Source: Tissierellia bacterium
Lineage (GTDB): Bacteria > Bacillota > Clostridia > Tissierellales > Peptoniphilaceae
Direction of reading: 5' to 3'
Assembly: GCA_030538075.1 (NCBI GenBank)
Contig: JAUNUQ010000002.1
Location: forward strand, 1-64,000
DNA: 64,000 nucleotides
Positions 54,423 to 63,982 of the stretch are shown here, piece by piece. A program made the position numbers and the translations under genes. The notes under the pieces are model-generated. The model did no database searches, had not been told where the DNA came from, and saw only the letters and a program-made list of their open reading frames with translations. Each line of letters begins with the position of its first letter. Position 1 is the first letter of the stretch.

Positions 54423-56198
54423 ATGAAGAAATATCTAAAAGGTCTTATATTGATTTGTATTCTGGCCTTGATGCTGGTTACGGCTTGTGGGAAAGAAACA
54501 GAACGAACGGAAGTCCAAGCTGACCAGACAGAGCAAGTTCAGGAGGAAAATGCAACAGAGGAATCAACAGAACCAGAAGAGACTTCAGGAGAGATCGTCA
54601 TCAATCCAGAGGATTCTACCGGTTCCAAGGCTGTTGAGACAGGCCAGCACCTAAATGCCTATTCCTATGACTATTCACCGTCATTGGATCCCGCTAACTT
54701 AAAGAATTACCAGGACAAACAGTTTGTGTTCAATATTTTGGAGCCTTTGGTTTTGACGGAGATTGATGAGAGCGGGGATTTGATCGTGCATCCTGGCGCA
54801 GCAAAAGTTTGGAAGGCCAACTTCAATTCCACCGTATACACCTTTACGATTCGTGACTTTAACTGGTCTGACGGTACACCGGTCAGCGCATATGACTACG
54901 AATATGGGATTAAGCGGGTTATGGATGCCAGCGCTACAAGTGTCTATCAATCCGATCTGTTCTTAGTGGATGGTTATAATAATCTATTAGATGGAAAGAT
55001 CTCGATCGAGGAGTTTGGCGTAAAAGCCCTCGATGATAAGACCTTGGAGATTCGGGCGAATATCATCGACGAGTATCCAGTATTTAGTGCCTTTGCCCAC
55101 CCATCTTTCCTGCCTGCACGAAAGGATCTGGTTGAGCAGCATGGCGCCCTATACGGCACTGCACCAGAGTATACCGTATCAAATGGCCCATTTCTATTTG
55201 ATTCAATTACCTCAGATGAATCAGGGAGTTCGATGGTCTTCAAGAAGAACATGGACTACTGGAATGGGGGAGCCGTTGCCCTCGACATCGTGAATGTGAA
55301 GGACTATGAATACGAAGAGGAGATGATGGAGGATTTTGAAGGGGGTATTCTAGATGAGGCCTATATCTATGATCGCGCCTATGCGGAGTTTCTGGAGCAA
55401 AGTCCAGAATTCAATGGCAATAGAGCCCTGTCTAGCGAGTCCTCGTTCTTAGCCTTTAATATGAGCCGCGTACCAGAAGCCAAAGTCAGGCGCGCAATTT
55501 CCGCAGCCATTGATCGAAGTATGCTCTCTGAGTACATGTATCCCTATATGACAGAACCAGTATACAGTGCAATCAGCCCGGTGGTCTTTGCAGGTTCAAA
55601 GAATTACGCATCGACATTTCCTGATAATATGGTGGACAAACTCCTTGACCAGGTCCCCGATCCAAAAGCTCTCCTCACAGAAGGGCTTGGGGGTGCTGAT
55701 CCAGCCACGACGGTCTTTGAGTTGATGACCCTGTCGACTTCGGATTACAATCTGAGAATTGCAGATTTCTTGAAACAAGAATTGGAGACCAAACTGGGAG
55801 TCCAAGTCAATATTAAACCCGTCAATGACTCTGAATACAATACCGCTTTTAATGGAACGGGGGAATTTGATATGGCGATCTTCTTCACCAGCCCTGTCCA
55901 CTCCGTTCCAGGTCAGGCTCTGGATTTTATGCTCCAGATTTACAATTCCTACCCTGGGCTCTACTACTCCAGCGACCGCTTTGACGATCTATTCATCAAG
56001 GCGGCAGAGCAGAGGGATGATGGTAGGAGAATACAGCTGTATCACGAACTAGATGAGCTTCTAGTCGTGGAGGAGGCCGCATTGGTCCCCCTACTAGTGG
56101 ACTACGCGGAGCATTTTTCCAAAAATTATGTACAGGGTTATTCCGTTCATGAGTTCGTCAATATGGCGTGGAGAAGTGTCCACACTGAAGGTAGATAA
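54423..56198 (+). CDS. Peptide ABC transporter substrate-binding lipoprotein (OppA-like), orphan
   Basis: 591 residues. Lipobox LMLVTAC (Cys22), acidic linker, then a family 5 solute-binding domain: DPANLKNYQDKQFVFNILEP, YTFTIRDFNWSDGTPVSAYD, VSNGPFLFDS, KVRRAISAAIDRSML. Such proteins bind oligopeptides or similar. No permease or ATPase gene is adjacent, so it either uses a transporter encoded elsewhere or has a sensing role. Confidence 0.88.
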   Translation: MKKYLKGLILICILALMLVTACGKETERTEVQADQTEQVQEENATEESTEPEETSGEIVINPEDSTGSKAVETGQHLNAYSYDYSPSLDPANLKNYQDKQFVFNILEPLVLTEIDESGDLIVHPGAAKVWKANFNSTVYTFTIRDFNWSDGTPVSAYDYEYGIKRVMDASATSVYQSDLFLVDGYNNLLDGKISIEEFGVKALDDKTLEIRANIIDEYPVFSAFAHPSFLPARKDLVEQHGALYGTAPEYTVSNGPFLFDSITSDESGSSMVFKKNMDYWNGGAVALDIVNVKDYEYEEEMMEDFEGGILDEAYIYDRAYAEFLEQSPEFNGNRALSSESSFLAFNMSRVPEAKVRRAISAAIDRSMLSEYMYPYMTEPVYSAISPVVFAGSKNYASTFPDNMVDKLLDQVPDPKALLTEGLGGADPATTVFELMTLSTSDYNLRIADFLKQELETKLGVQVNIKPVNDSEYNTAFNGTGEFDMAIFFTSPVHSVPGQALDFMLQIYNSYPGLYYSSDRFDDLFIKAAEQRDDGRRIQLYHELDELLVVEEAALVPLLVDYAEHFSKNYVQGYSVHEFVNMAWRSVHTEGR

Positions 56199-56216
56199 TG
56201 ATCTGCATGATGATAG

Positions 56217-56265
56217 GACAGCCCCCGAGGAGACTGCAATAGAGCAATCTCCCTGGGGGCTGTCC
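56217..56265. terminator. Terminator between the OppA-like gene and prxU
   Basis: GGACAGCCCCC (56217-56227) pairs with GGGGGCTGTCC (56255-56265), with additional internal pairing. Confidence 0.75.
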
Positions 56266-56300
56266 TGATTCTTTATCGAGGAGTGATGCATTTGGTATAT

Positions 56301-56909
56301 TTATCTAGCTTCGTCGACCTTCCAAGTCTTCCATACATTCCCGATGAGTTCATCACTTGGTTTTAAGGTCTGCTTACCCGGGGTCCAACCTGCGGGAGCA
56401 GCTTCAGCTCCATTGGTCTTGCGGTTCATCTGATATCCCTGGATTTGACGGAGTACCTCATCTACATTTCTACCAACGGCTGGGCTTAGCACTTCAAAAG
56501 CCTGTAATACGCCATCTGGATCGATGATAAAGCTACCCCGTACATCCACGCCGCCCTCTTCATCATAGACCTCGAAGAGTTCACCCAGGCGTCCACCTGC
56601 GTCAGAACCGAGGACATAGGGCACACCTCCATCGACCATATGGGAGATTTCTTCTTCATCCCACACTTTGTGTACATAGGGGCTGTCCGTGGAGATTCCC
56701 AATACTTCGATACCCAGTTCCTGAATTTCAGCATATCTGTCGGCAACTGTCGACACTTCCGTACCTCAGACAAAAGTGAAGTCACCTGGATAGAAGAAGA
56801 TCCACAGCCATTTTCCCTTGTAATCCGATAGGGAGACCTTAGTCACTTTCCCATTACAATATGCCGGAATTGTAAACTCCGGTACCAATTTTCCAACTCT
56901 TGTGCTCAT
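56301..56909 (-). CDS. prxU: Selenocysteine-containing peroxiredoxin (in-frame UGA at codon 48)
   Basis: A 202-residue AhpC/Prx-type peroxiredoxin if the in-frame TGA (56768-56766, minus strand) is read as selenocysteine. The context is FYPGDFTFV-U-GTEVSTVADRYAEI, where peroxiredoxins have FYPxDFTFVCPTE, so the UGA is exactly at the peroxidatic cysteine. Both sides align in one frame without indels. Selenoprotein peroxiredoxins are known in amino-acid-fermenting Clostridia. AAGGAGG precedes ATG 56909. The usual C-terminal resolving cysteine (VCP) is replaced by EAAPAGWTPG; the only remaining cysteine is C18. A hairpin follows the UGA. It probably reduces peroxides with a thiol partner. Confidence 0.9.
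56738..56755 (-). promoter_or_regulatory. Candidate bacterial SECIS hairpin in prxU
   Basis: On the minus strand, TGTCG (56755-56751) and CGACA (56742-56738) form a stem around an 8-nt loop (ACAGTTGC), starting 10 nt after the UGA, as expected for a bSECIS that recruits SelB. The stem is short, so boundaries are uncertain. Confidence 0.5.
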
Positions 56910-57039
56910 TCAATATCCTCCTTGTTATTTCGTTCGACGGGAAATCCCGATAATCCATAAGCATAGCTTATGAAAAAAGATTTAGCATTTACAATTCTTA
57001 TTTTACCCTGTTCTACAGAAATGAAACCAGAAAATTAAA

Positions 57040-57056
57040 ATAAGAATTATTCTTAT
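57040..57056. promoter_or_regulatory. PerR-box-like palindrome upstream of prxU
   Basis: ATAAGAAT-T-ATTCTTAT is a perfect 8-1-8 palindrome; its 7-1-7 core resembles the PerR box (TTATAATNATTATAA). A half-site, AATTCTTAT, recurs at 56993-57001, nearer prxU. The window also encodes a PerR protein (63.6 kb). The remaining 56910-57290 stretch has the inverted repeat CATAAGC-ATA-GCTTATG (56956-56972) but no gene. Confidence 0.5.
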
Positions 57057-57294
57057 ATTATTTATTAAAAACCCAGCTCCTTCGATTCAGAAAATAGCAT
57101 CTATCTCACATGCATATCTGAAGGATCCATAGAGAGGGAATCAGAAGCGGGATAATTGGTGACAAAGAGCTGCCAAATGCAAATGACAGGTTACGAATCG
57201 TCCATTCCGATCGATATTGTAGGATTTATTTCAATGGGAATATAACGAAATGTCCAATCTATCATTAGGAGCTATTCTCAATATAAAATCGTGG

Positions 57295-57300
57295 TATAAT
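57295..57300 (+). promoter_or_regulatory. -10 box of the lrp-type operon
   Basis: TATAAT preceded by TGG, 19 nt before the start codon; the -35 is weak. AGGAGGAGG at 57308-57316 is the ribosome site. Confidence 0.5.
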
Positions 57301-57816: not shown

Positions 57817-59409
57817 ATGAATAACAGTTATGCGAAGGTGCATCCCTTCGTCAACGAAAAAGTATTGACTTATGAAGAAAACAGCTTAGAATATCAAGAG
57901 CTCATCCGAGAATACGACAGGATGAAATCAGAGAGGATTTCCATTCCCCTGGTGATCGGCGGCAGGGAGATTCATACGGAGAAAAAGGGAGTATGCGTCA
58001 TACCCCATGATAAGAACCATGTCTTAGCGGAATTTTCGATGGCCGGCGCCAAAGAGGCAGAGGAGGCGATAGAAGCAGCGCTGGAAGCAAAAGTGAAATG
58101 GGACAAGATCCCTTGGGATGAACGCGCCTCCATTTTTATGCGTGCCGCAGCCCTTGCTTCTGGCTCCTATCGCTCAAAGCTCAATGCGGCGACGATGTTG
58201 GGACAGAGTAAGACCTATCGCCAGACAGAGATTGACGCAGCGGCAGAGCTCTGCGATTTCTTCCGCAGCAATGCGAGACTGCTTCATGATATCTATGCAA
58301 ATCAACCCCTATCACCGGATACGCACTGGAACCGGGTCGACTACAGACCGCTAGAAGGCTTTATTTTTGCTGTTTCCCCTTTTAACTTTACATCCATCGC
58401 GGCGAACTTGGCTGGCGCACCGGCTATTGCTGGGAATACCGTTGTTTGGAAGCCCTCTTCCACGGCTGTGTACTCCAACTGGATCGTCTATCAACTCTTT
58501 AATGAAGCGGGTCTGCCCGATGGGGTTATCAACTTCATCCCGGCGTCCTCTGGGGACATCTCCGATGTGATCTTCCAGAATAAGCATTTGGCAGGGGTGC
58601 ATTTCACTGGCTCCACAGCGACTTTTAACCAGATGTTTCGGACGGTTGGCGAGAATATTGACCTGTATCGCACTTATCCCAGACTCGTCGGAGAAACAGG
58701 CGGGAAGAATTTTGTCGTCGCCCATGAATCTGCGAATCTAAAGTTGCTGGCCAGAGGCCTACGTGATGGTGCGTTTGAATTCCAAGGACAAAAATGCTCA
58801 GCGGCCTCCCGCGCCTATATTCCCGTAAAGGTCTGGCCTCAACTGAAGGAAATCCTGATCGAAGACATGAAAACCGTCAAGATGGGCGATGTTCGAGAGC
58901 GGGACACCTTCTTAGGTGCGGTGATCGATACAGCCTCCTTCAATCGAATTAAGGGGTATATCGAAGCTGCCAAGGAATCCGATCAAGCGGAGATCATCTA
59001 TGGCGGAAATTGTGATGATCATGTAGGATATTTTGTGGAACCCACTATCATCCTGACAACTGACCCTCATTTTCTCACTATGGAAGAAGAGATCTTTGGA
59101 CCGGTGTTGACGGTCTATCTATATGATCAAGACTATGATGAGCTCCTAGAGCTAGTGGATAATACCTCCCAGTATGGCTTGACCGGATCCATCTTTGCAG
59201 AGGATCGCTATGCGATCGTCCGCGCGCAGGAGGTACTGGTGAATGCAGCGGGCAATTTCTATGTAAATGTCAGGCCGACCGGAGCTGTAGTGGGACAACA
59301 GCCCTTTGGTGGAGCTAGAAAATCTGGCACCAATGATAAGGCAGGTGCCTTGAACAATATGCTTCGATGGCTCAGTCCTCGAGCGATCAAGGAAGAATAT
59401 TTAAAATAG
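57817..59409 (+). CDS. 1-pyrroline-5-carboxylate dehydrogenase (glutamate semialdehyde dehydrogenase)
   Basis: 530 residues, the long P5C-dehydrogenase type. Catalytic C327 (EFQGQKCSAASRAY) and E293 (RLVGETGGKNFV), AVSPFNFTSIAANLAGAPAI, VWKPSSTAVYSNW, and VNVRPTGAVVGQQPFGGARK. It oxidises P5C/glutamate semialdehyde to glutamate with NAD. In this operon the P5C would come from hydroxyproline by HypD. Confidence 0.92.
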   Translation: MNNSYAKVHPFVNEKVLTYEENSLEYQELIREYDRMKSERISIPLVIGGREIHTEKKGVCVIPHDKNHVLAEFSMAGAKEAEEAIEAALEAKVKWDKIPWDERASIFMRAAALASGSYRSKLNAATMLGQSKTYRQTEIDAAAELCDFFRSNARLLHDIYANQPLSPDTHWNRVDYRPLEGFIFAVSPFNFTSIAANLAGAPAIAGNTVVWKPSSTAVYSNWIVYQLFNEAGLPDGVINFIPASSGDISDVIFQNKHLAGVHFTGSTATFNQMFRTVGENIDLYRTYPRLVGETGGKNFVVAHESANLKLLARGLRDGAFEFQGQKCSAASRAYIPVKVWPQLKEILIEDMKTVKMGDVRERDTFLGAVIDTASFNRIKGYIEAAKESDQAEIIYGGNCDDHVGYFVEPTIILTTDPHFLTMEEEIFGPVLTVYLYDQDYDELLELVDNTSQYGLTGSIFAEDRYAIVRAQEVLVNAAGNFYVNVRPTGAVVGQQPFGGARKSGTNDKAGALNNMLRWLSPRAIKEEYLK

Positions 59410-59423
59410 GAAGTGGTGATGGG

Positions 59424-60323
59424 ATGGAAGGCACGATCTTTAATATTCAAAAGTTCTCCATCCACGATGGTCCCGGGATTCGGACGACGATCTTTTTAAA
59501 GGGATGCCCTCTGCATTGCCTATGGTGTCATAATCCGGAGGGAATGAACCCAAAGATCGAGTTGATCTACTATGAGGATCGCTGCAAGAGATGTGGGGCT
59601 TGCATCCTTGCATGTAAATTTGGGGTCCTCTCAATGGGTGAGAATGCCTTGGAGCTGGACCGCGACAAGTGCACCGCTTGCGGGAAATGCCAAGAGGCAT
59701 GTAATTACGGCGCCATCGAACTGGCAGGGAAAGAAGCCTCCATCCAACATATTGTGGATGAGGTGATGAAGGATTGGGTATTTTACAAAAACTCTGGAGG
59801 TGGGGTCACCATCTCTGGAGGTGAGCCCTTTATGCAGTGGAAATTTATGCTGGAGCTGGTGAAGGCTTTAAAGGCAAAGGGCGTACACGTGGCTGTGGAT
59901 ACCTCCGGATATACCCTGTGGCGCAGGATTCAAGAGGTGGCAAGCTATACGGATCTCTTCTTGTATGATCTAAAACTGATCGACAATGAGAAACACTTGA
60001 AATATATTGGCGTGGATAACACCGCCATCTTGGACAATCTGATGAAGCTCTCAGAGAGTGGGGCCAAGATACGATTGCGGATTCCCCTGATCAAAGGGGT
60101 GAACGACTCGCCGAAGGACTTGGATGACACCGTGGAATTTGTCAAATGTCTCCGATTGGAGGATATTCAGATCCTTCGATACCATAGCATGGGGATGGAA
60201 AAATACCCACGTCTAAATGAAGAGTATCAGATGCAGGGAGACGAAGTGCCCGAACCAGTCGTCGTCGAGGAATTCGCCGAGCGCCTTCGAGCACTGGGAA
60301 ATACCGTGAGCATCGGAGGTTAG
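59424..60323 (+). CDS. Glycyl-radical enzyme activase (HypD-activating radical SAM enzyme)
   Basis: 299 residues. Radical SAM motif C28-x3-C32-x2-C35 (KGCPLHCLWCHNPEG) and two ferredoxin-type 4Fe-4S sites (C54, C57, C60, C64; C83, C86, C89, C93), TISGGEPFMQ and the DLFLYDLKLID region. It generates the glycyl radical on its partner, encoded 37 nt downstream. The start at ATG 59424 is preferred; the frame upstream lies in the end of the dehydrogenase gene. Confidence 0.93.
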   Translation: MEGTIFNIQKFSIHDGPGIRTTIFLKGCPLHCLWCHNPEGMNPKIELIYYEDRCKRCGACILACKFGVLSMGENALELDRDKCTACGKCQEACNYGAIELAGKEASIQHIVDEVMKDWVFYKNSGGGVTISGGEPFMQWKFMLELVKALKAKGVHVAVDTSGYTLWRRIQEVASYTDLFLYDLKLIDNEKHLKYIGVDNTAILDNLMKLSESGAKIRLRIPLIKGVNDSPKDLDDTVEFVKCLRLEDIQILRYHSMGMEKYPRLNEEYQMQGDEVPEPVVVEEFAERLRALGNTVSIGG

Positions 60324-60360
60324 TACATACCCATTCAGGGTTATGTGGAAAGGAGAAGCT

Positions 60361-62721
60361 ATGAAATCGCAGCGAATAGAAGCTCTGAGGCACAAGAGCG
60401 TAAATGAAGTGCCGACGATCTCCATGGAACGTGCAGTCGCGGTAACCGATGCATATAAGAGACATTTGGGAAGTGTCTCCTATCCAGTGCTCAGAGCACT
60501 TGCTTTTAAAGAGATCATGGAGACGAAGACCATTTATTTGGGAGAGGGAGAACTGATCGTTGGAGAACGGGGAGAAGCCCCCTGTGCCACTCCCACCTTC
60601 CCTGAACTCTGCTGTCATACACTACAGGACTTCACGGTTATGGATCAGCGGGAGAAGATCTCCTTTAAGGTCAGACCGGAGTATTTCGACATCCAGCGTG
60701 ATGAGATCATCCCATTTTGGGAGAATCGCTCCACCCGCTATATGATGCTGGAGGAGTTGGATGAGGAGTGGAAGGAAGCCTATGGCGCAGGCATTTTCAC
60801 AGAATTTATGGAGCAACGCGGGCCAGGTCATACTGCGGGAGATGGCAAGATCTACAAAAAGGGATTCCTGAACTTCAAAGAGGAGATCAGAGAAGCCATC
60901 CTCGCTCTGGATTTTTACAATGACCCCGAGGCATATGACAAGAGGGAACAGCTGAAGGCGATGGACATCGCCTGTGATGCGATCATCATCCAGGGTAAGC
61001 GCCATGCGGAAAAGGCCAGGGAACTGGCTGAGGGCGAGGAGAATCCCCTCCGCAAGCAGGAGCTGCTGCAGATCGCAGAAATTTGCGATTGGGTACCTGC
61101 ACATGCGCCGAGAAATTTCCACGAAGCCATCCAGATGTATTGGTTTGTGCATTTGGGTGCGATAACAGAGCTAAACCCATGGGATGCATATAATCCAGGC
61201 AGGCTTGACCAACACCTCTATCCCTTCTATAAAAAGGAAGTGGAAGAGGGGACGATGACGCGGGAAAAAGCAGAGGAGCTCCTTCAATGTCTGTGGATCA
61301 AATTCAATAACCATCCGGCACCTCCAAAGGTGGGCATCACCTTAAAGGAGAGCTCCACCTATTTTGACTTTGCAACCATCAACAGCGGTGGACTCACCAC
61401 CGATGGAGAGGATGGGGTCAATGAAATCAGCTATATCGTCATGGATGTCATTCAGGAGATGCGTATGCTCCAGCCTGGATCCAATGTGCAGATCAGCCAC
61501 AAGACCCCTGAGGAATTCTTGAAACGTGCCATCGACATCACCCGTACCGGATATGGACAGCCCTCGATCTTTAATGCGGACATGGTCGTCAAGGAGATGA
61601 TCGCCATGGGCAAGAGCCTTGAAGATGCCCGTGACGGTGGTACAAGTGGATGCGTGGAAACAGGTGCTTTTGGAAAAGAAGCCTATATCCTGACGGGATA
61701 TTTTAATCTGCCGAAGGTCTTTGAACTGACCTTGAATAATGGGGTCGATCCGAGAACTGGCAAACAGCTGGGACTGAAGACGGGAGAAGCCGCAGAGTTT
61801 GAGACCATTGAAGAACTTTATGAAGCCTTTAAGACACAGCTCAAGCACTTTGTGGATATCAAGATCAAGGGGAATAATATCATTGCCAAGATCTTTGCAG
61901 AAGTCATGCAAGTGCCCTTCCTATCGGTCATCACCGATGACTGTATCAAAAACGGGCTGGACTATAATGCCGGAGGCGCCAGATACAATACCACCTATAT
62001 TCAAGGGGTGGGGATTGGAAATATCACAGATGCCATGTCCGCGGTGAAATACAATGTGTACGATCATCAGAACTTCACCATGGTTGAGTTGATGCAAGCT
62101 GTAAAAGATAATTTTGTCGGCCACGATCGCATTTGGAACCTGGTCATGAACCGAACGCCGAAATACGGAAACGACGATGATTATGCAGACGCCCTTCTGG
62201 TTCAGATCTTCAATGAATACCACGATATGATCGAAGGTAGACCAGCGGGACGAGGTGGACAGCATCATATCAATATGCTTCCGACGACCTGTCATGTCTA
62301 TTTTGGCTCTGTGATCGGAGCGACTCCCGATGGCAGATTGTCGGGCAAGCCCCTGGCCGATGGGATCTCCCCTTCAAAAGGTGCAGACATCAACGGGCCG
62401 ACTGGCGTGATCAAATCCGCCGCCAAGATGGATCATTCCAAGACGGGCGGAACCCTTCTAAATCAAAAATTCATCCCCTCCGTGGTCGCTGGGGAAGAGG
62501 GTCTAAGCGGGATGGCAGCAGTTGTCCGCGGCTATTTTGAACTGGGAGGCCACCATGTACAGTTCAATGTCGTAGGTAGAGACACCCTGCGAAAAGCACA
62601 GGAACATCCAGAGGAATTCAAAGATCTCATCGTCCGGGTTGCAGGCTATAGTGACTATTTCAACAATTTGGACAAGGCCCTACAAGACGAGATCATCGAA
62701 CGAACAGAGCAGTCTGTATAG
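60361..62721 (+). CDS. hypD: trans-4-Hydroxy-L-proline dehydratase (glycyl radical enzyme)
   Basis: 786 residues from ATG 60361 (AAGGAGA upstream). Thiyl Cys431 and Glu433 in GGTSGCVETGAFG, glycyl radical Gly762 in RVAGYSDYF. Counting shows F149, H157, D275, C431, E433, Y447 and T642, each exactly three less than the Clostridioides difficile HypD active-site residues as I recall them (F152, H160, D278, C434, E436, Y450, T645). This is strong support over other glycyl radical dehydratases. It removes water from hydroxyproline to give P5C, which the dehydrogenase upstream can oxidise. Confidence 0.93.
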   Translation: MKSQRIEALRHKSVNEVPTISMERAVAVTDAYKRHLGSVSYPVLRALAFKEIMETKTIYLGEGELIVGERGEAPCATPTFPELCCHTLQDFTVMDQREKISFKVRPEYFDIQRDEIIPFWENRSTRYMMLEELDEEWKEAYGAGIFTEFMEQRGPGHTAGDGKIYKKGFLNFKEEIREAILALDFYNDPEAYDKREQLKAMDIACDAIIIQGKRHAEKARELAEGEENPLRKQELLQIAEICDWVPAHAPRNFHEAIQMYWFVHLGAITELNPWDAYNPGRLDQHLYPFYKKEVEEGTMTREKAEELLQCLWIKFNNHPAPPKVGITLKESSTYFDFATINSGGLTTDGEDGVNEISYIVMDVIQEMRMLQPGSNVQISHKTPEEFLKRAIDITRTGYGQPSIFNADMVVKEMIAMGKSLEDARDGGTSGCVETGAFGKEAYILTGYFNLPKVFELTLNNGVDPRTGKQLGLKTGEAAEFETIEELYEAFKTQLKHFVDIKIKGNNIIAKIFAEVMQVPFLSVITDDCIKNGLDYNAGGARYNTTYIQGVGIGNITDAMSAVKYNVYDHQNFTMVELMQAVKDNFVGHDRIWNLVMNRTPKYGNDDDYADALLVQIFNEYHDMIEGRPAGRGGQHHINMLPTTCHVYFGSVIGATPDGRLSGKPLADGISPSKGADINGPTGVIKSAAKMDHSKTGGTLLNQKFIPSVVAGEEGLSGMAAVVRGYFELGGHHVQFNVVGRDTLRKAQEHPEEFKDLIVRVAGYSDYFNNLDKALQDEIIERTEQSV

Positions 62722-63430: not shown

Positions 63431-63610
63431 GATCTGCCTCCATTTCTGGTTCATTATATCATAGGCTGGTCATAATAATGCAGATACATTTGACGAAATA
63501 CACATTTGCGGTTAAGATATATTTAGAGAATGCTATCCATTCTTAGACCATATCAATCTAGAATAGTTAGAGACGGAGTCAGTCTGAATTATCTAAGTCG
63601 AGGAGGAGCC

Positions 63611-63982
63611 ATGACAAAACAAAGAAATCTCATATTGCAGATCATTCGTGAATCCAACGAACATCTAAATGCGGAAGAGATCTATTTGCTTGCCAAAATG
63701 CAGATGCCCTCTATTGCCATCGGCACTGTCTATCGAAACTTGAATTTGATGGTGGATGCAGGAGAGATCAATCGGCTACACATCCCGAAGGAGCCAGATC
63801 GCTTCGATCGAAATATCCATAGACATGACCATTTGATCTGTGAGCGCTGCGGGGACATTCGAGACGTAAAGCTAGCAGATCCGATGAGGATGGAAGAGCT
63901 ATTGAAGACCTCAACAGGGGAAGAGATCAGCTCCTATGACCTGACGATTTATTATGTCTGCGAGAAGTGTAGGGCACATTAA
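63611..63982 (+). CDS. perR: Peroxide-responsive repressor PerR (Fur family)
   Basis: 123 residues. Regulatory-metal ligands expected in PerR are all present: H18 (EHLNAEEIY), D66 (RFDRN), H72 and H74 (HRHDHLIC) and D85 (DIRDVK). Structural zinc cysteines are C77/C80 and C117/C120. Asp rather than Glu at the fifth ligand favours PerR over Fur. The N terminus is short, without the TPQR segment. ATG 63611 follows GAGGAGG; the open frame upstream to 63530 is probably leader. Confidence 0.87.
   Translation: MTKQRNLILQIIRESNEHLNAEEIYLLAKMQMPSIAIGTVYRNLNLMVDAGEINRLHIPKEPDRFDRNIHRHDHLICERCGDIRDVKLADPMRMEELLKTSTGEEISSYDLTIYYVCEKCRAH

Follow-up and report, generated by a model that had tools for sequence, protein, structure and literature searches.

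A short-form PrxU peroxiredoxin with a predicted UGA-encoded selenocysteine at its active site in a Tissierellia bacterium

The prxU locus

The window analyzed here is a 64,000-nucleotide stretch of DNA from a Tissierellia bacterium. Reading the sequence places prxU on the minus strand at 56301..56909, with an ATG start at 56909-56907 and a TAA stop at 56303-56301. When TGA is read as selenocysteine (Sec), the frame is predicted to encode a selenocysteine-containing peroxiredoxin of 202 residues that matches NF040737 and the Pfam families AhpC-TSA and 1-cysPrx_C, and its single internal stop codon is the TGA at 56766..56768 (minus strand). This TGA is codon 48 and, by alignment to homologues and to the AhpC protein 1we0, it occupies precisely the peroxidatic position in the motif PxxxTxxC/U, which reads PGDFTFVU in the window protein. 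A Shine-Dalgarno sequence, AGGAGG, read directly from the sequence at 56917..56922 (minus strand), precedes the ATG. Immediately upstream of the ATG there is another in-frame TGA, and therefore the protein has no N-terminal extension.

Under translation table 11 alone, the only open reading frame listed for this frame is one of 151 residues that starts at GTG (56756-56301). The original prediction described a continuous peroxiredoxin frame with TGA replacing the peroxidatic cysteine codon, which standard gene calling would render as a truncated 151-residue protein, and we find both statements to be accurate, including the coordinates and counts that placed codon 48 at 56768-56766. The prxU reading corrects the annotation of a gene that standard gene callers would overlook or label a pseudogene. 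Six other frames in the window cross a TGA, and inspection by eye found a recognizable Sec active-site context in none of the six.

The space between convergent genes holds an inverted repeat rich in G+C, GGACAGCCCCC...GGGGGCTGTCC, at 56216..56265 (no strand assigned), which was identified by reading the sequence and is likely a bidirectional terminator. An Rfam scan of 56000-57300 returned only chance microRNA-like matches, and these fell on the terminator repeat. Adjoining prxU on the plus strand (57817-62721) is a hydroxyproline-use locus that includes a P5C dehydrogenase (TIGR01236, 730 bits), the trans-4-hydroxy-L-proline dehydratase HypD (NF043068, 1405 bits with a cut-off of 1100) and a glycyl-radical activase scoring slightly below the T4HPD activase cut-off.

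The encoded protein belongs to the PrxU family

The NCBIfam equivalog model NF040737 (peroxi_PrxU) matched the window protein with 318.3 bits, above its curated cut-off of 270 bits, and aligned residues 3-199 to positions 36-232 of the 233-position profile. The AhpC model TIGR03137 gave 176 bits, which is under its cut-off of 272, and the Pfam models AhpC-TSA and 1-cysPrx_C gave 114 and 28.8 bits, respectively. The best solved relative is AhpC (PDB 1we0), where the peroxidatic cysteine in FYPADFSFVC aligns with Sec48. At the level of sequence, the family of the window protein is settled.

The comparison covered 249 genomes from the order of the window's organism, and in 54 of them a match exceeds the PrxU cut-off. 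A TGA lies inside the PrxU frame in 52 of these 54, including the genome of the window, and in the remaining two, G065 and G003, the codon at the Sec position is TGT. Ten further loci taken from the genome collection, among them loci from Acidobacteriota, Ignavibacterium, a Proteobacteria metagenome-assembled genome (MAG) and Clostridia, all carry TGA at the Sec codon (10/10). Close homologues have a TGA aligned with codon 48 of the window, and TGT or TGC occurs in an outgroup of more distant AhpC-like proteins. These results bear out the proposal that the gene encodes a selenoprotein peroxiredoxin. The accompanying statement that such proteins are known in amino-acid-fermenting Clostridia was right in that the family is well known, although its range is wider than Clostridia and takes in Acidobacteriota, Ignavibacteriota and the Proteobacteria MAG. 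Identity between the window protein and most relatives is ~0.5-0.6 both upstream and downstream of the UGA, as expected for a frame that is translated throughout. In the tree the window protein sits on a long branch, and the tree does not place it.

Two relatives depart from the common pattern. The locus L070 of G065 encodes a Cys-PrxU that scores above the PrxU cut-off and groups with the Sec forms L073 and L074, and a search of that genome for selA gave no match; L070 likely represents a Sec-to-Cys replacement plus loss of the hairpin described below. In L053 (genome G189) the fifth codon past the Sec TGA is TAA instead of the Ser or Ala codon of relatives, which points either to a disrupted gene or to an error in sequencing.

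The genome encodes the selenocysteine machinery

Family searches of the window's genome, which is 2.5 Mb and 98% complete, recovered all four selenocysteine genes whose presence the original prediction had made its check: selD, selA, selB and selC (tRNA-Sec, anticodon UCA) form one cluster on contig C19. The selD gene has an in-frame TGA of its own, in TSGUAAKVG, and the glycine reductase gene for GrdA is present with one TGA. Across the same-order genomes, selA was found in 51 of the 52 with a TGA-containing prxU, versus 163 of all 249 (Fisher p = 4e-10, a value that ignores relatedness). The sole TGA-PrxU genome without a selA match, G006, is 71% complete. Cys-PrxU and selA occur together in G003.

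A hairpin downstream of the UGA covaries among relatives

A putative bSECIS hairpin, UGUCGAC-AGUU-GCCGACA, was located at 56738..56755 (minus strand) by alignment to the hairpin of relatives, which reads UCAGC-AGUU-GCUGA or UCAGC-GGUC-GCUGA. Its 5-bp stem UGUCG/CGACA begins 10 nt past the UGA, and in the register shared with relatives there is one A.C mismatch in the stem. In the window, the region after the UGA does not fold better than its shuffled versions (z 0.03 and -0.51), and for this reason the window hairpin taken alone is no evidence. In an alignment of 30 distinct sequences, 90% of cells are paired and changes on both sides occur at 4 of the 6 pairs. The covariation score is 0.338 as compared to 0.100 in shuffles (0/500) and <=0.089 in slid versions of the alignment; the slid versions preserve relatedness, which the shuffles do not. 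Randomization of synonymous codons in each sequence separately gave weak support (window 5/6 pairs, P 0.087; most relatives 0.09-0.6), and we therefore used the covariation count instead. Thus the hairpin that the original prediction saw 10 nt past the UGA does begin there and is homologous to the covarying hairpin of relatives, but its own fold is like that of shuffled sequence and is weaker than theirs. The hairpin that covaries over 30 relatives provides a usable bSECIS model for the PrxU family.

The published bSECIS model calls for an apical loop of 3-9 nt with a G at either of the first two positions, a stem of 4-16 bp, a distance of 16-37 nt between the UGA and the apical loop, and a free energy <= -7.5 kcal/mol (PMC13188914, Fig. 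2A). In the homologous register, which carries the A.C mismatch, the window hairpin has the loop AGUU with G second, 17 nt from the UGA. The minimum-energy form is 0.6 kcal/mol better and has an 8-nt loop, ACAGUUGC, with no early G, 15 nt from the UGA. The free energy is -9.2 for a 48-nt segment and -4.6 for the 18-nt hairpin alone. In another short-form clade (L059-L062 and L069) the hairpin after the UGA lies several nt further downstream, with AUAGCC-GUU-GGCUAU in L059, which suggests a shift of the bSECIS along the gene in that clade.

The mismatch raises the possibility that prxU is a decaying selenoprotein gene, in which Sec is still encoded and is poorly inserted due to a weakened bSECIS, as a step to the loss of Sec represented by the Cys form in G065. 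Among the 30 sequences, that of the window alone is unpaired at pair 19-26, where the A.C mismatch lies, and the Cys form L070, from the same taxonomic family, has the same GTEVSTVA that causes the mismatch and has lost the stem after the codon. Against decay, the lower G-C pairs of the window hairpin partly offset the mismatch, the outer stem is strengthened by these G-C pairs with a change on both sides at pair 18-27, both the apical loop AGUU and its closing C-G are retained, and the reading frame is otherwise intact. On balance, we consider decay unlikely.

Predicted decoding of UGA48 as selenocysteine

An alternative would be that TGC or TGT was converted to TGA in an ordinary Cys peroxiredoxin, through an error of sequencing or assembly or by a nonsense mutation that arose naturally, so that the gene is a pseudogene. 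A single base change would be enough, and both the long branch of the protein and a hairpin weaker than those of relatives would be in keeping with such an event. However, TGA stands at this very codon in the nearest relatives, which come from other species and phyla, the frame is undamaged elsewhere and has a ribosome-binding site and conserved residues on either side of the TGA, and the genome decodes UGA as Sec, such that we regard error or mutation as very improbable. That the real product is instead the 151-residue protein started at GTG 56756, which is the longest local open reading frame under the standard code and would have no active site, deserves hardly any credence, as the peroxidatic motif would be missing, the good Shine-Dalgarno sequence sits at the ATG at 56909, and residues 1-47 are conserved at ~0.5-0.6 identity, for which there would be no cause if they were untranslated.

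We conclude from the sequence that prxU is a real, intact gene, predicted to encode a peroxide-removing enzyme with an active-site selenocysteine specified by UGA. The sequence basis for this reading consists of the open frame with its codon, the family assignment, the Sec machinery, and a hairpin that is conserved and covaries. It is almost certain, in our judgment, that tRNA-Sec and SelB, aided by the hairpin just 3′ of the codon, would insert selenocysteine at UGA48 of this AhpC/Prx1-type peroxiredoxin.

Long and short forms of PrxU

Cys18 is the only cysteine in the window protein besides Sec48, and it is not conserved. Relatives mostly have a cysteine ten residues before Sec, which is absent here, and the C-terminal resolving cysteine, found in the VCPAxW of AhpC, is replaced by alanine (AAPAGW). 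Long-form relatives have an xCxRP motif ~74 residues before Sec that the window protein also lacks. An N-terminal extension that bears a conserved xCxRP or GCGKP at that distance is present in most PrxU relatives, from several phyla (L029-L058 and L003-L011), and it is possible that the conserved cysteine is a resolving cysteine. The xCxRP extension is absent from about a dozen short forms, among them the window protein, and it is not a defining feature of the whole PrxU family. How the selenenic acid is resolved can be tested directly through the contrast between short forms and the long forms that carry xCxRP near the N terminus.

In the proposed cycle, the selenolate of Sec48 would attack the peroxide and be converted to a selenenic acid. 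Since the window protein has no C-terminal resolving cysteine, no xCxRP cysteine and only the non-conserved Cys18, we infer that direct reduction of Sec48 by an outside thiol, for example thioredoxin, in a "1-Sec" cycle would be most likely.

A palindrome shared with catalase and Prx6-type peroxiredoxin genes

A perfect palindrome, TAAGAATNATTCTTA, lies ~130 nt upstream of the prxU ATG at 57041..57055 (no strand assigned), and the palindrome around it extends to 8-1-8 at 57040-57056. We take its core, AATNATT, to be similar to Fur/PerR operators, which makes the site a Fur/PerR-like operator candidate. Three exact copies of the 15-mer occur in the genome versus none for the reversed control, and ~0.01-0.1 are predicted from composition. 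The other two copies are ~160 nt upstream of a catalase gene (L081) and ~110 nt upstream of a gene for a Prx6-type peroxiredoxin (L082; PRK13189, 302.6 bits, cut-off 211). A scan that allowed 2 mismatches was not enriched (9 matches versus 18 in the reversed control), and the case for an operator is therefore built on the exact copies. Three Fur-family genes were found in the genome. The one within the window, at 63530..63982 (plus strand), is a candidate regulator of prxU whose nearest NCBIfam models are PerR and Fur, with scores under their cut-offs.

The palindrome links prxU to the likely peroxide regulon of its genome, and on this sequence pattern prxU, catalase and the Prx6-type peroxiredoxin likely form one such regulon. 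A PerR-like repressor of the Fur family may switch prxU on under peroxide together with the other two genes. As a tentative and rather doubtful extension, the short-form PrxU may rely on Sec48 as its sole essential redox residue, reduced by an outside thiol, with the xCxRP cysteine of most relatives a potentially unrecognized resolving residue, in a probable anaerobic amino-acid fermenter that would control prxU along with catalase by peroxide-responsive regulation of the Fur/PerR type.

Comparison with known selenocysteine peroxiredoxins

The window prxU is a divergent short-form addition to the known PrxU family, and its description is a correct annotation and not a new kind of system. Among its closest known counterparts is PrxU, the selenocysteine peroxiredoxin described from Eubacterium acidaminophilum in 2001 (Sohling et al., doi 10.1515/BC.2001.123, as cited in PMC13188914). 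Like that protein and the model NF040737, the window protein scores above the equivalog cut-off, has Sec in a TxxU peroxidatic motif and comes from a genome with a selenocysteine GrdA; unlike them, it is known from sequence alone, is divergent and on a long branch, and has no N-terminal extension, leaving profile positions 1-35 unmatched. CLOST_2406 of Clostridium sticklandii, a listed selenoprotein peroxiredoxin of an amino-acid fermenter (PMC3091704), is a long form of 240 residues with Sec84 and ~36 extra N-terminal residues, whereas the window protein has 202 residues and Sec48. Selenocysteine peroxiredoxins also appear in two genome surveys (PMC1088965, PMC1794560).

With AhpC and the typical 2-Cys peroxiredoxins (TIGR03137; PDB 1we0) the window protein shares, by sequence, the family and the peroxidatic site, but it has Sec for the peroxidatic cysteine and Ala for the C-terminal resolving cysteine, and its 176 bits fall below 272. 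COG1225 is the PrxQ/Bcp-like group. The selenoprotein peroxiredoxins of the Sargasso Sea set, which have a TXXU motif with Sec at the peroxidatic site, were filed under COG1225 (PMC1088965), whereas the window protein is of the AhpC/Prx1 type.
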